Shown here: positions 6,085 through 53,337 of the stretch, one piece after another
Layout of the letters: every line of letters begins with the position of its first letter
How positions within the stretch are numbered: position 1 is the stretch's first letter
NCBI RefSeq assembly: GCF_001447355.1
Contig: NZ_JXBW01000006.1
Coordinates: 1 to 64,000, forward strand
Length of the DNA: 64,000 nucleotides
Direction: 5' to 3'
DNA from: Alicyclobacillus tolerans
GTDB taxonomy: Bacteria > Bacillota > Bacilli > Alicyclobacillales > Alicyclobacillaceae
Notes under the pieces: model-generated
Told to the model about the DNA's origin: nothing
Databases searched by the model: none
The model's input: the letters and a program-made list of their open reading frames with translations, nothing else
Made by a program: the position numbers and the translations under genes

Positions 6085-6756
6085 ATGCTGTATGTTGCAC
6101 TCGCCGTCATTCCGGGCTTGTTTTTGATGATCTTTATTTACACGCGCGATCAACTCCACCCCGAACCCAAGCGGCAAATAATACGACTGTTCCTCCTCGG
6201 GGCCGCCATCGTCTTTCCGGCAGGGCTCATCGAGCGAATGACAATGGATAGCCCTGGCTTTCAACAAGGAGGTCTCGAGGGACGGATTATTACGGCCTTT
6301 TTTATTGCAGGGATGATTGAGGAATTTCTCAAGGCCTCGATTTTTGACCGCACAGTCCTTCACAGCAGTCTTATCCAAGGCCGTGTCGATTGTATCGTCT
6401 ATGCGGCTGCAATCGGACTTGGTTTTGCAACCGTCGAGAACATCTTATATGTGACAAGTTCTGGCTTTCTAACGGCCATCGTACGCTCGGTCACAGCCGT
6501 GCCAGCTCACTTCATGTTTGCAATCATCATGGGATATCGATTCGCTAAAACTAAGTTTGACGGCAAGAACAAAGCTTTCGCATATTTGCTGCCAGCGCTT
6601 GCTCACGGAACCTACGACACGTTTGCGCTGGCCTCCACCTTGTGGGCCGACATTATCTTGGCCGTATTGCTTCTCGTTCTCGCCGAAATATCTGCAAAAA
6701 TTTTACGAAATGTCGGCGCCACACGGCGTGGGACCGTACACTTTCGCAACAGCTAG
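6085..6756 (+). CDS. PrsW-family intramembrane metalloprotease
   Basis: A 223-residue membrane protein with about seven hydrophobic segments. It has the PrsW signature residues: EEFLK in one helix, FATVEN in another, and a later His (LAHGTYD) for the metal site. In Bacillus subtilis PrsW makes the first cut in the anti-sigma factor RsiW, but no sigW/rsiW pair lies here, so the substrate is open. ATG 6085 follows AAGGAG by 8 nt; the GTG at 6076 is inside that site. A short inverted repeat (GCTAGCAC / GTGCCTAGC, 6752-6779) covers its stop. Confidence 0.88.
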   Translation: MLYVALAVIPGLFLMIFIYTRDQLHPEPKRQIIRLFLLGAAIVFPAGLIERMTMDSPGFQQGGLEGRIITAFFIAGMIEEFLKASIFDRTVLHSSLIQGRVDCIVYAAAIGLGFATVENILYVTSSGFLTAIVRSVTAVPAHFMFAIIMGYRFAKTKFDGKNKAFAYLLPALAHGTYDTFALASTLWADIILAVLLLVLAEISAKILRNVGATRRGTVHFRNS

Positions 6757-6774
6757 CACACCTGCAACGGGTGC

Positions 6775-7152
6775 CTAGCGTAAATCAAACCCGTTCTGTC
6801 CAAACGGCACCGGTCCAGTAGCGACGCCATGAAATTCAAAGAGCCAGGCCCTCTCGGCACGAAAGATAGACATCTCTATGCTTTCATCTAGCATCAGCAT
6901 TTGAAATAAATTCATGGACGTACGGAAATAAGGGCTCATGTGCTCATCTTGAAGACGAAGGTTTAACACTTTGTAGCGATCTGGCTCCCTTACGCGCACG
7001 CCATCCCGTCCGATTACCTCACCGAACACCGCAACGTCTAGTAGATCCTCTTGCTGTGCGCGAGCGCGTAGGACGTCATATAATTGCCGAACCGATTTTG
7101 CTTTACGGCTATTGTCGAATACAAGCGCATAATGCGCTATCCGCTCTGTCAA
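6775..7152 (-). CDS. Hypothetical protein, 125 aa
   Basis: I do not recognise this protein. It is soluble, of mixed charge, with a plausible alternating alpha/beta pattern (HYALVFDNSRKAKSV, LLDVAVFGEVIG, AERAWLFEFHGVATG). A TTG start fits, with GAGGG 8-9 nt upstream; the nearby ATG at 7160 is out of frame. It is probably transcribed alone, since a terminator lies between it and the upstream Sir2 gene. Confidence 0.6.
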   Translation of the reverse strand: MTERIAHYALVFDNSRKAKSVRQLYDVLRARAQQEDLLDVAVFGEVIGRDGVRVREPDRYKVLNLRLQDEHMSPYFRTSMNLFQMLMLDESIEMSIFRAERAWLFEFHGVATGPVPFGQNGFDLR

Positions 7153-7214
7153 CCGTCCATCCCTCTACTTTTTCTCGCAGACGGCGTACCTGCCATCTCC
7201 AATATGTTCCCATG

Positions 7215-7254
7215 CAAAACGCCCCCTGTGGTAAACCAACCTGATTAGGGGGCG
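7215..7254 (-). terminator. Rho-independent terminator of the Sir2 gene
   Basis: On the minus strand, CGCCCCCT and AGGGGGCG form an 8-bp GC-rich stem with a 19-nt loop, followed by TTTTGC. It lies 110 bases downstream of the Sir2 stop codon. Confidence 0.65.
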
Positions 7255-7365
7255 ATTTGCGCATAAGGATATGGGAAAGTCTGTTCTCATTATACATGAC
7301 AAAAGTCGAGAAAGAAATAGGACGAGCCCTAGTTCCTGTAGAAAATTCGCGATTTTGCACGAACT

Positions 7366-8058
7366 TTAACGACACGCATCTACCAATGCGCAAACCCATG
7401 CCTCCGCGTCATCCAACACCCAAATGATGTCCGCACCAGCTCGCACCCCCACTTCTCGTAACCTGCGAACAGGATCCATATTCATTTCTGTGCCCACAAC
7501 GAGGACACAGCGCGCATCTGCAACCCATTCCGTCGCCCTCGCGATGTGGCGTACCTGTTCACCCTCAAACACAACCCCAGGGAATAGTCTTCCCGTACAC
7601 GTTGGGCATTGTGGAACCGCTTCCCGAAAGGCCAACTTGGCGGTGAAAAGCGAGCTACATACATCACACCGCAATTCCCGCAAATTGCCATGTAATTCAA
7701 TTACGCTTTGACTACCAGCATCACGATGAAGGCCATCGACATTTTGGGTGACAATGCGCACTCCCGCGTGTGCTAATGCCAAATGTGCGGCATTGGGAGA
7801 AGCGCTCCGCCATGTCGACAGCATGTGACGATAGGCATCATAAGCTGAGTGAGGATCATCCAGCCAAATATCCCGTCGAAAAAAGTCGTCAAGCGAAACA
7901 CCCATAACGGAGCCGGTTCCAACAGGTAAACCGCTTTCCACACTAATGCCTGCACCTGTAATGGCCACTAATTGGGATCTGCAAAACCGTGACATATCGA
8001 TACGTTTTAAGGTATCCAGGATATTACCGTTACAGTAAAAAACCATTTCATCGCGCAC
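7366..8058 (-). CDS. Sir2-family (sirtuin-like) protein with altered loop
   Basis: A 230-residue NAD-dependent deacylase-like protein. It has GAGIS (residues 35-39), TQNVDGLH, the catalytic His in ELHG, and a four-cysteine zinc site (CDVC and CPTC). The usual GIPDFR segment after GAGIS.ESG is replaced by GLPVGTGSVMG, so the conserved Phe-Arg pair that contacts NAD/ADP-ribose is missing. It may have a changed activity. GTG 8058 or ATG 8046 are both possible starts behind AGGTG. It is divergent from the XRE regulator at 8165. Confidence 0.85.
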   Translation of the reverse strand: MRDEMVFYCNGNILDTLKRIDMSRFCRSQLVAITGAGISVESGLPVGTGSVMGVSLDDFFRRDIWLDDPHSAYDAYRHMLSTWRSASPNAAHLALAHAGVRIVTQNVDGLHRDAGSQSVIELHGNLRELRCDVCSSLFTAKLAFREAVPQCPTCTGRLFPGVVFEGEQVRHIARATEWVADARCVLVVGTEMNMDPVRRLREVGVRAGADIIWVLDDAEAWVCALVDACR

Positions 8059-49687: not shown

Positions 49688-50188
49688 CTACATGCGGTGA
49701 AGCCAAGCGAACACGACAAGAGCGCCACCACTAAGCCAAGCCAGATTGTGAAGCCATTGTCGCATTAGTTGACGCCGCGGTTTGGCAATCGAAAATTCGG
49801 CACGCTGAATTCGCTCGTGCAACACATCGACAAAGAGTACACCGTGGATACCAAGAATCACAGCAACAGGAAAATATCGCTCATTCACTTCAGCTTCTGG
49901 TACCTTCTCAAGCGTTACAAACACAGCATACTCGCGTCCGTTTTTACGCGCAATGAAGTCGGCGCTCATGGAATAACTCCATTGTGAATCGTCAACCCAA
50001 CCAACGTATTCCGCCTTGCCTTCGATCCGCAGAATATCGTACCCGTTTTCTTCAAGCCACTTGCGCGCAACCGATTTCAGGCCACCGACACCAACTTCGC
50101 GATCGCGATAGAGCCATTCGCGACACAAGGAGCGAATGACGATACCCACACAGATACACGCCGCCAGCAAAGCCAAGCCCGTCAGCAT
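49688..50188 (-). CDS. Hypothetical protein with two membrane segments
   Basis: A 166-residue protein: N-terminal helix (residues 3-20), a soluble region (about 25-145, including ARKWLEENGYDILRIEGKAEYVGW), and a C-terminal helix (LAWLSGGALVVFAWL). I do not recognise a family. The middle part recalls restriction-endonuclease-like or Vsr-like folds only loosely, so I make no claim. ATG 50188 is distant from GGGAG; TTG 50206 also possible. It lies between tlyA and nadK in the same operon. Confidence 0.62.
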   Translation of the reverse strand: MLTGLALLAACICVGIVIRSLCREWLYRDREVGVGGLKSVARKWLEENGYDILRIEGKAEYVGWVDDSQWSYSMSADFIARKNGREYAVFVTLEKVPEAEVNERYFPVAVILGIHGVLFVDVLHERIQRAEFSIAKPRRQLMRQWLHNLAWLSGGALVVFAWLHRM

Positions 50189-50229
50189 GTGACAGCCAAC
50201 TCCCAACCGTCACCCAGATTTATGGCTGG

Positions 50230-51060
50230 TCAACCTGGCTCCCTTCCGTCGCCTCCTACAGCGTGCCATGCAGAATCGACGAGGTCAGAACAGCGCGATC
50301 TCCATGTAGCGGTTTGCTCTGGATTCGGAAACATTCTCCACCATGCAAGAAATTCAATATTTCCGTCGCCGCCCGAAATTGGCGAGTAATCGAGCCCCCA
50401 GCAGGACCAGCCGAGTGTTGTGACATGATCCAGCATGTCCAACAACACGTCGAGATGAACCTGTTTGTCTCGGACAATACCACCCTTGCCGACTCTCCCC
50501 CTGCCTGCTTCAAATTGTGGCTTAATCAGACTGACAATATCAGAAACGGGATTACATACCTCTGCCAACTTCGGAAATAGCAATTTCGTCGAGATGAACG
50601 AGACGTCCATCACAGCCAAATCTGGAGTCGGATCGAATAACACTGGATCGGCATGGCGGAAATTGAATCGCTCCATCACGCGGACGCGATCGTCTTGGCG
50701 CAACGACCACGCCAATTGCCCATATCCGACGTCGACTGCATAAACCAAGCGAGCCCCGTGCTGCAAGAGACAATCTGTGAAGCCACCCGTCGAGGCTCCA
50801 ACATCGATAGCGACGCGATCCGTCACGGATATGCCAAATGTCGCCAACGCCCGTTCCAGCTTCAACCCACCGCGCGACACGAATTGATGCGGTGGCCGCT
50901 TCACCGTAACCTGCCGTTCCGGGTTAATTTGCGTCCCCGGCTTTTCGACACGCACGCCATCGACATCGACAAGACCTGCCATCACAGCCCGGCGCGCCGC
51001 CTCGCGGCTTGGAAAGTCACCCCGTTCATGTAAAAAGACGTCCAACCGAACCTTGGTCAT
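50230..51060 (-). CDS. tlyA: TlyA-family rRNA 2'-O-methyltransferase
   Basis: A 276-residue protein: N-terminal S4 RNA-binding domain (1-60) and a FtsJ-like Rossmann methyltransferase domain with AIDVGASTGGFTDCLLQ and LAVMDVSFIS. The end shows SPISGGDGNIEFLAWW, followed by an extra tail of about 35 residues not typical of the family. TlyA modifies 16S and 23S rRNA and, in some bacteria, has haemolytic activity reported. ATG 51060 follows AAAGGAAG. Confidence 0.92.
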   Translation of the reverse strand: MTKVRLDVFLHERGDFPSREAARRAVMAGLVDVDGVRVEKPGTQINPERQVTVKRPPHQFVSRGGLKLERALATFGISVTDRVAIDVGASTGGFTDCLLQHGARLVYAVDVGYGQLAWSLRQDDRVRVMERFNFRHADPVLFDPTPDLAVMDVSFISTKLLFPKLAEVCNPVSDIVSLIKPQFEAGRGRVGKGGIVRDKQVHLDVLLDMLDHVTTLGWSCWGLDYSPISGGDGNIEFLAWWRMFPNPEQTATWRSRCSDLVDSAWHAVGGDGREPG

Positions 51061-51079: not shown

Positions 51080-51664
51080 TCACGTCCGATTTGTCCGCCG
51101 CAGCCGAGCCGGATTGCGCCCGACAAGAGCAACTGTCTCCCACACACGTGCGGCAAATAGGATAATTGGCGTCGGTGAGTGAATAGCCACGGTCTTTCCC
51201 ACGGCCTTGCCTCCGACCGTCAGCGCAGTAATGACAGCCGTAATTCCAATTTTCCACGCTTCCTGTGCCCACCCCTGAGCGTGCACAGCAAGTAATACCT
51301 GCACACTGACAGCCAGTGCGCCAGCCCCGCTCAAAACACCCGCGATATCGCCAATCACATCACTGCAGACGCTCGAAACTTTTTCTGCGTTGCGTACAAT
51401 GGCGATGGCACGACGGGCACCATATACCCGCTTAGATGCCATCGCGTGGAACGGCGTCTCTCGCGCCGCAGCTGCCGCCATACCAAGCATGTCGAACAAG
51501 GCGCCGATACAAACGATGAGCAGTACGATTACGGCTCCGATGTACCAACTCGTCTGATTTAAAAAGATCGTAGATGTATCGAAAACCGCACTGATGGGCA
51601 AAGTCAGTGCGGCGATAGTCCAAACAAATTTGAAATTGGCTGACCTCGAACCGTTCTTCTTCAT
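51080..51664 (-). CDS. oapA: OLE-associated membrane protein OapA
   Basis: A 194-residue membrane protein with about four helices. Its hallmarks are FDMLGMAAAAARETPFHAMAS, RNAEKVSSVCSDVIGDIAG (with the DxxxD pattern DVIGD) and SPTPIILF. These are the features I know for OapA, the membrane partner of OLE RNA, itself related to CNNM/CorB-like domains. It lies directly downstream of a large structured non-coding stretch on the same strand. ATG 51664 follows GCGAGG. Roles in Mg2+ and cold or ethanol stress are known for the complex; here they are inferred. Confidence 0.85.
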   Translation of the reverse strand: MKKNGSRSANFKFVWTIAALTLPISAVFDTSTIFLNQTSWYIGAVIVLLIVCIGALFDMLGMAAAAARETPFHAMASKRVYGARRAIAIVRNAEKVSSVCSDVIGDIAGVLSGAGALAVSVQVLLAVHAQGWAQEAWKIGITAVITALTVGGKAVGKTVAIHSPTPIILFAARVWETVALVGRNPARLRRTNRT

Positions 51665-51699
51665 CGAAACCTCGCTTAAAGCTGGGTTCTCACGCACTT

Positions 51700-52353
51700 A
51701 TGTAATGAAAATCAAAGGGTGGCAGTTTCCTGAGTAAACGCTGTGGCTTAGGTCCAGTAGGTTTTCCCAAGCGTTCACCGAGACGTCGCCGTCACGGTGG
51801 TTTCCCATTATGAACACCTTGACAGCGTCACCGACTGTCAGACTGGATTACCACTTAGTCCACACTATAATCCTCAGAAAACCTCGCCTTGTAGCGAACA
51901 GTCTAGGCGTTTTCCGCAACAGCCGCGAACGCGCCCTAGCCTCTTTTGCAGTACGGATTTCACCCAGCACCGGCGGCATCTCCGTGGCCGCGGGACGCCG
52001 CCTGAATTCCTGGGATCCTTCAGCACCACTTCAAGGCAGGCTACACTGCACACAGATTGCCTCCGCATGCAGGTTCATACCCCAAGCCATAACCCTTCCC
52101 ATGGATTGCGAGCTACGCACTTGGGCCTCCGCGAAAGCTGGGTTAGTCTCCGCATGCCATTGCGGGCTACCCAACTTTCTTAACTCCCAGCATAAGCCCA
52201 GGGCTGGGCGCCCCAAGCCAACACCAGGAACTTCATCGATGTGCCCTTTGACGGATTTTTAGCCCCGCCTTCAGGCGCGGACGGCTGACTAGAATACTGC
52301 GCCACCCAATGACATTCGCAAGCACTTGTCGTAGACCGAAAGCGACTTTACGT
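51700..52353 (-). ncRNA. ole: OLE (ornate, large, extremophilic) RNA
   Basis: A 650-nt stretch with no plausible gene, on the same strand and between ispA and oapA. The minus-strand RNA folds strongly: GUGAACGCU/AGCGUUUAC (51734-51742 with 51770-51778), CACCG/CGGUG, GGCGGC/GCCGCC, CUAGG/CCUAG, a nested CCGCA/UGCGG inside GUUGGGUAG/CUAACCCAGC, and GCCCAG/CUGGGC. Published OLE RNAs are about 610 nt long and stand next to oapA, often beside ispA. Ends are my estimates: 5' from the -10 at 52360, 3' where structure stops before oapA. Not compared with a covariance model. Confidence 0.82.
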
Positions 52354-52359
52354 GTTTGT

Positions 52360-52369
52360 ATTATATCAC
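52360..52369 (-). promoter_or_regulatory. Extended -10 promoter for the OLE RNA
   Basis: Minus strand TGATATAAT (TGn plus TATAAT at 52360-52365), an extended -10. No good -35 is seen. Transcription would begin near 52353. The space from 52369 to the ispA stop at 52453 shows nothing else. Confidence 0.5.
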
Positions 52370-52452: not shown

Positions 52453-53337
52453 TCAATGAGATCGAACGAGTACAAGCGATTGTAGTTCCCCTAAGTACGG
52501 AGAATGAATCCCACATCTGTTCAATGCTTCTTGCCCGCGCGCGATGGTCTCCTCAGCAAGGCGACGGGTTTCCTCAATTCCTATGAACCGCGGATAGGTC
52601 AGCTTGCCTTCCGCCTCGTCCTTGCCGGCAGTCTTGCCCAATTCGGAAGTTGAACCCACGACATCCAACACATCGTCAACCATTTGAAACGCGAGTCCCA
52701 AAGCCTCTCCATAGGTCGACAGGGCTTCTTGTGCTTTTGCATCTAAATCGGGAAACAAACTTCCGATTTCCACTGCAGCCTGGATCAAGCGCGCAGTCTT
52801 GTGAAGATGAATAAACTGAACGTCCGTTAACGTCCCCTGCCCACCGGTTCGCTCGACGTCGACCGCCTGTCCGCCGACCATACCGTCAGCTCCCGCACGC
52901 GAAGCCAGGATTTGAATCATACGCAACTGTCGCTCAGCAGGAACTTCTGGTATCGGCCTGGCCAATAGGGCAAACGCTTCAGTGAGTAACCCATCGCCTG
53001 CGAGCAATGCCATGGCCTCGCCAAATACCACGTGGTTGGTTGGCTGTCCACGTCGCAAACTGTCGTCGTCCATACAAGGCAAATCATCGTGAATCAACGA
53101 ATAGCAGTGTATCATCTCCAAAGCCGCCGCTGCCGGCAACACACGTTGGCGTTCCACGCCAAACGTCTGCGCCGTCGCCATCAGTAACGCCGGGCGGAGA
53201 CGCTTGCCATCTGCCATCAAACTGTAATTCATCGCTTCATACAAACGCGTCGCCAGACCGTCCGTGTGAAGAAGACCTTGCAAATATGCTTGTAACTCTG
53301 TCTTGCAGGATTCCAAATAGGACCCCATGTCGATCAC
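52453..53337 (-). CDS. ispA: Farnesyl diphosphate synthase IspA
   Basis: A 294-residue polyprenyl synthase that makes farnesyl-PP from isopentenyl-PP and dimethylallyl-PP. Both aspartate-rich motifs are present: DDLPCMDDD (near residue 85) and DDVLD (near 220), plus the conserved GKRLRPAL and the QMVDDVLDV region. GTG 53337 overlaps the xseB stop (GTGA). dxs, which follows ispA in Bacillus, is not here; OLE and oapA take its place. Confidence 0.94.
   Translation of the reverse strand: MIDMGSYLESCKTELQAYLQGLLHTDGLATRLYEAMNYSLMADGKRLRPALLMATAQTFGVERQRVLPAAAALEMIHCYSLIHDDLPCMDDDSLRRGQPTNHVVFGEAMALLAGDGLLTEAFALLARPIPEVPAERQLRMIQILASRAGADGMVGGQAVDVERTGGQGTLTDVQFIHLHKTARLIQAAVEIGSLFPDLDAKAQEALSTYGEALGLAFQMVDDVLDVVGSTSELGKTAGKDEAEGKLTYPRFIGIEETRRLAEETIARGQEALNRCGIHSPYLGELQSLVLVRSH

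Follow-up and report, generated by a model that had tools for sequence, protein, structure and literature searches.

A complete OLE RNA gene and its OapA partner in Alicyclobacillus tolerans, with comparative evidence on the promoter, partners and distribution of OLE

Between the farnesyl diphosphate synthase gene ispA and an ATG at position 51664 in the Alicyclobacillus tolerans genome, about 790 nt of the minus strand contain no plausible gene. What this stretch encodes, and how it relates to the membrane protein gene that follows it, is the question raised by the locus. We analysed it within 64,000 nt of contig NZ_JXBW01000006.1 (hereafter the window). An earlier note, made from the letters alone, had proposed that the stretch is dense in stable minus-strand stems and encodes OLE RNA next to its partner OapA. 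The predicted fold of the minus strand is indeed far more stable than that of shuffled sequences (-283 versus -230 kcal/mol, z = -7.5). A scan of the whole 64-kb window with all 4227 Rfam families returned a single match, to OLE (RF01071), at 52321-51703 on the minus strand; it covers model positions 1-616 of 616 with 519.2 bits (E 2.1e-149), against a gathering score of 50 bits, and a genome search identified no further copy. The interval proposed in the note, 51080-52369, is accurate once divided into ole (51703-52321) and oapA (51080-51664). To our knowledge, few structured bacterial RNAs without a known biochemical function are as large as OLE.

The 619-nt RNA forms standard pairs at 147 of the 159 base pairs of the Rfam structure. 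We then aligned 96 distinct OLE sequences, drawn from Alicyclobacillaceae, Bacillaceae, Paenibacillaceae and other groups, and found two-sided compensatory changes at 115 of 158 model pairs; 90% of all pair cells in this alignment are standard, compared with 42% in a control in which the partner was slid by three positions. Helices P7, P8 and P9 all align to RF01071, which places the RNA with the full-length type rather than with variants 1 and 2 of the same RNA class, described from the TANB77 and RF39 clades (PMC11332333). In variant 1, P7-P9 are shortened and the OapB site is often missing; variant 2 has neither P7 nor P8. The window copy, by contrast, has all three helices, and its host genome encodes both OapB and OapC. 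With the Halalkalibacterium halodurans prototype of RF01071 it shares the full model length, the conserved nucleotides, P3/P3.1, P4a and P5-P9, both 3'-domain hairpins, the GGCC loop of P9, a promoter of its own, ispA upstream and oapA directly downstream. It departs from the full-length type in a -10 element set farther upstream and in the absence of CCUCC from P6, and its locus does so in the absence of dxs between oapA and tlyA and in an acidophilic host. The gene-free stretch is confirmed as a complete, ordinary, full-length member of the known OLE class, and was probably already included in published genome-wide surveys, such as that of 2,822 OLE genomes (PMC11332333). The locus itself is ordinary, and its interest lies in the comparative by-products, which sharpen some claims about how OLE works.

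Downstream of the RNA, oapA (51080-51664, minus strand) encodes a 194-aa membrane protein, with a GAGG ribosome-binding site ahead of the ATG at 51664. The motifs FDMxGxxxxxxxETPFHAM and DVIGD, on which the earlier assignment to OapA had relied, are present at the expected places. The assignment is upheld by comparison: at the large majority of 80 further loci, the gene that follows OLE encodes a member of this protein's conserved family. It is 100% identical to its counterpart in A. hesperidum DSM 12489, 99% identical to that of A. sacchari and 42-100% identical to 80 homologues. Among 34 aligned OapAs, residues E69, P71-M75, D102, G105 and D106 are invariant and the ETPFHAM block is conserved; D102 and D106 make up the DxxxD motif (51347-51361), the hallmark that distinguishes OapA from CNNM transporters. 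The match to the CNNM Pfam family is weak (E 2.9e-4) and falls below the curated cut-off, and a search of solved structures with the OapA sequence gave no match. When its AlphaFold model (pLDDT 77.5) was compared with the PDB, the top four fold matches, and the only high-probability ones, were to MtCorB (probability 1.00, E only 0.02-0.08, TM to query 0.41-0.51). The predicted fold of OapA accordingly appears CNNM-like and nearest to this archaeal CNNM transporter, in line with a published comparison between OapA and CNNM proteins (PMC11332333). The CNNM Mg2+ transporters MpfA, CorB and CorC share with OapA a weak CNNM-domain similarity, but OapA carries DxxxD, co-occurs with OLE and is without the CBS pair and the CorC_HlyC domain, neither of which was found in its 194 residues.

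Several elements with assigned roles in OLE can be followed in this copy. P3.1 and P3, which are unpaired in the Rfam model, form here between 5' strands at 52274-52287 and 3' strands at 51920-51935 as 6 + 6 pairs. Across the 96 sequences, 1087 of 1149 pair cells in these helices are standard, with strong covariation, and the length is fixed at 12 pairs while the sequence varies freely. In the literature, P3/P3.1 connects the two OLE domains and has been put forward as a helix that may cross the membrane (PMC12265935). Just 3' of P4a lies the palindrome CAUCGAUG (52234-52241), identical in 93 of the 96 RNAs. By analogy with published work (PMC12265935, PMC9723947), it is probably the P4a-side contact of OapA, and it may also serve as the 5' strand of the OapC kink-turn (J4a/5). 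This kink-turn joins J4a/5 with J5/6 or J6/7; the comparison covered its 5' strand alone, which is nearly invariant. The GGCC palindrome in the P9 loop (51986-51989), the kissing-loop site of the OLE dimer, is present in all 96 RNAs; in the cryo-EM dimer this loop kisses its twin, forming contact B3 (PMC12286853). The 3'-domain hairpins with GGYGAC loops, in the region of the OapB site P12.2/P13, are likewise retained.

The alignment also bears on how OLE binds the ribosomal protein bS21, which has been mapped to P6, a stem-loop that in H. halodurans carries CCUCCU, the sequence of the 16S rRNA tail (PMC12054373). In the window copy, P6 (52133-52179) keeps its GGG/CCC pairing and has no CCUCC. 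On the 3' side of P6, CCUCC occurs in none of 34 Alicyclobacillaceae RNAs and in only 5 of 62 others, with GGG/ACCC retained, so the anti-Shine-Dalgarno mimic is neither general nor class-defining. This rarity agrees with the published mutants, in which binding was unhurt when the Shine-Dalgarno and anti-Shine-Dalgarno letters were changed with pairing kept, and was hurt when conserved G-C pairs were swapped (PMC12054373). It argues that bS21 binding, if general, relies on conserved G-C pairing in P6 rather than on imitation of the ribosomal sequence.

The claim that the RNA has a recognisable promoter holds, though not in the standard form. A consensus scan found no standard -35/-10 pair on the ole strand, the best -35 match being 2/6. 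What is present is an extended -10, TGATATAAT at 52368-52360, whose hexamer occupies 52365-52360 and which has no matching -35. This element is shared by every OLE gene examined: of the 95 whose 5' end could be read, 79 are preceded by a perfect TGNTATAAT and the rest by a copy with one mismatch, whereas dinucleotide shuffles gave means of 6.6 (up to one mismatch) and 0.8 (perfect). Among 66 upstream regions that are less than 70% alike, the bases before the extended -10 are T in 95% and A in 70%; the TG was required by the search, so that its 100% is by construction. The -35 is weak, and better outside Alicyclobacillaceae. A single full-text literature search returned no earlier description of an extended -10 at OLE. 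This near-universal element offers a handle on OLE expression and start sites.

In most species, 13-21 nt separate the -10 element from the first conserved block, GUGGYGCAGU. The distance is 53-56 nt in the window (54 nt), A. hesperidum, A. sacchari and A. acidiphilus, so that a 5' leader about 40 nt longer is expected in these four. Judged by the promoter position, the primary transcript would start near 52353, and an RNA running from there through the last Rfam-matched position would measure about 650 nt. A promoter of OLE's own inside the operon is on record for H. halodurans, as PMC9723947 relates from a 2007 paper. The only terminator-like site on the ole strand in this region lies inside OLE and is within chance expectation, and none was found between OLE and oapA; the 3' end of OLE is therefore presumably generated by processing, as in H. 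halodurans.

The genes around the RNA are those of the known OLE neighbourhood, as the earlier note had recognised. On the minus strand, ispA (52453-53337) lies directly upstream, as in nearly all linked loci, and tlyA (50230-51060) downstream of oapA. Two usual operon members are found elsewhere in this genome: dxs, normally between oapA and tlyA, at G000:C12:52176, and argR at G000:C1:337364. In the congeners G001, G004, G006, G007 and G012, dxs is still found after oapA, so its departure from the operon, by relocation or loss, took place within the genus. The surrounding 10.6 kb are 96.6% identical to A. hesperidum DSM 12489 and 83.9% identical to A. sacchari, placing the host at or close to A. 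hesperidum. The host genome (2.81 Mb, 99.8% complete) also encodes the other known partners of OLE, namely OapB, a KOW-type protein of 116 aa whose gene sits between adk and infA and which matches PDB 7k9b, 'OLE-associated protein B' (E 2.8e-19), OapC, a 99-aa protein between rpoC and rpsL that matches YbxF structures (E 5e-19), and bS21; together with OapA, all are intact.

Between tlyA and the NAD kinase gene (49688-50206, minus strand) we also noted a 172-aa protein that has hydrophobic stretches close to its two termini and matches no Pfam or NCBIfam family. It occurs in all Alicyclobacillaceae searched and has weak homologues in related families. We considered it as a new OLE partner and rejected it, because weak homologues also occur in the sister family that has no OLE, several of them near argR.

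Turning to distribution, OLE was found in 40 of 41 Alicyclobacillaceae genomes and OapA in all 41. The remaining genome (G034, locus L127) was rejected as an OLE-less case, because the contig breaks off 110 nt beyond oapA, with the 3' 89 nt of OLE still on it. The sister family in the same order had neither OLE nor OapA in 18 of 18 genomes. The CorC_HlyC domain, the hallmark of MpfA, shows the converse pattern: no protein of the host genome has one, and it occurs in 5 of 41 Alicyclobacillaceae genomes (36 lack it) against 16 of 18 in the sister family, a contrast (Fisher p = 2e-8) between related genomes that are not independent. Five Alicyclobacillaceae genomes have both OLE and a CorC protein. 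Among the 62 other genomes of our class sample, CorC was present in 44 of 44 without OLE and in 15 of 18 with it (p = 0.02). The counts within the order and the MpfA-less host genome thus repeat at short range the OLE/MpfA anticorrelation reported previously (PMC11332333), although inside the order it may represent one evolutionary event. With OLE and almost no MpfA on one side, and MpfA without OLE in the sister family, the order allows replacement of one by the other to be examined across a short evolutionary span. As a separate observation, Pullulanibacillus pueri (L070, 4959-7600) has an oapA unlinked to OLE, and the second gene after it encodes a full MpfA-type transporter (CNNM, CBS and CorC_HlyC; 6254-7600), with a MerR regulator between them, placing OapA beside its supposed all-protein counterpart.

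These comparisons allow two other readings of the locus to be weighed. The structured RNA could be a cis-acting leader that controls the translation or transcription of oapA in the manner of a riboswitch, and not a trans-acting RNA. The layout invites this reading, since OLE stops only about 38 nt short of the ATG of oapA, no terminator separates the two, and they are adjacent in nearly all loci. However, P. pueri, P. camelliae and Caenibacillus caldisaponilyticus each have an intact oapA (52-56% identical) without an adjacent OLE, and carry a full-length OLE (501-550 bits) at another place in the genome; the two genes are likewise widely separated in G069, G077 and G090. The unlinked pairs in the three species indicate that OLE and OapA work in trans, and binding of OapA by OLE and membrane localisation in trans have been published (PMC12265935). 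A cis-acting leader is thus largely refuted, and we consider it very improbable. Still less credible, to the point where we give it almost no weight, is that the window OLE is a degenerate relic kept by its position in the operon. In its favour, twelve of the 159 model pairs are non-standard, one for want of a base, and dxs has gone from the operon in the species group of the window. Against this, the RNA agrees with its 95 homologues at all columns conserved in 95% or more of them, except for an inserted A at RNA position 291, its four protein partners are intact, and OLE is present in every Alicyclobacillaceae genome searched, the contig end in L127 being the lone apparent exception. We note that the three genomes with unlinked oapA (L070-L072) had also been considered as exceptions to the co-occurrence of OLE and OapA, and were dismissed because each has its full-length OLE elsewhere, and that the OapAs of G069, G077 and G090 rank with the most divergent examined, at 33-40% identity.

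We regard it as highly probable that the ole-oapA locus of Alicyclobacillus expresses OLE from its own promoter as an RNA bound by OapA at the membrane, where it would act as a stress and divalent-metal regulator in place of MpfA. OLE would be transcribed from its extended -10 inside the ispA-oapA-tlyA operon, starting at about 52353; the transcript would read through into oapA, and processing would give the mature 3' end. The RNA would fold into two domains, with the 12-bp P3/P3.1 helix connecting them, and dimerise partly through the GGCC loop of P9. Dimers of OapA, a CNNM-like transporter relative, would hold it at the membrane, and OapB, OapC/YbxF and bS21 would bind it, yielding a putative membrane-bound regulator of stress and divalent metals that stands in for the missing MpfA-type Mg2+ transporters. 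This model joins our observations on RNA identity and fold, OapA identity, the full set of partners, the absence of MpfA and promoter conservation to the binding, membrane location and stress phenotypes demonstrated by others in H. halodurans (PMC9723947, PMC11332333, PMC12265935, PMC12054373, PMC12286853). By analogy, the same binding, location and stress role may be expected in the present species; the metal-regulator role of the complex is a proposal that is unsettled even in H. halodurans.

Alicyclobacillus hosts grow best in hot conditions at about pH 3-4, and this bears on one step of the mechanism, as distinct from the identification of OLE, namely whether P3 crosses the membrane and leaves domain 2 outside. 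There is a substantial chance, somewhat short of even, that OLE is wholly cytoplasmic in these acidophiles and that the membrane-crossing arrangement is wrong, at least here. With approximate domain borders (domain 1 taken as RNA positions 54-395), the ratio of domain 2 to domain 1 divergence is 0.90 between Alicyclobacillaceae and others, 0.95 among others and 0.99 within Alicyclobacillaceae, so that faster evolution of domain 2 in acidophiles is not seen, although an external domain 2 would meet acid. This absence is weak evidence for a cytoplasmic RNA; in addition, OapB, which binds domain 2, is encoded beside infA and by inspection has no obvious signal peptide. On the other side, the partial models of two cryo-EM groups are best fitted by a membrane-crossing P3 (PMC12265935), and P3/P3.1, with its constant length and unconstrained sequence, looks as a fixed-length spacer should. 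The strict retention of these 12 pairs also fits the bolder proposal that Alicyclobacillaceae OLE is an integral membrane RNA with domain 2, which holds the 5' and 3' ends, exposed to the acidic exterior; domain 2 itself bears no sign of special adaptation, and we consider this proposal unlikely. If true, a folded RNA domain of about 270 nt would be at work outside the cell of an acidophile. Acid-growing hosts place the proposed outward-facing domain under a testable condition, which makes the Alicyclobacillaceae a good natural test bed for OLE.

Finally, the survey turned up a natural OLE of just 371 nt in Paenibacillus sp. NAIST15-1 (G124; L107, 4609-4979). Compared with P. alvei (L096), a clean deletion of about 300 nt has taken out P5-P9, the core of domain 1, with oapA and the remaining parts in place. 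The other OLE-bearing genomes of this genus that were searched all have full-length copies (9 of 9), and the short RNA is either an assembly error or an OLE reduced to domain 2.
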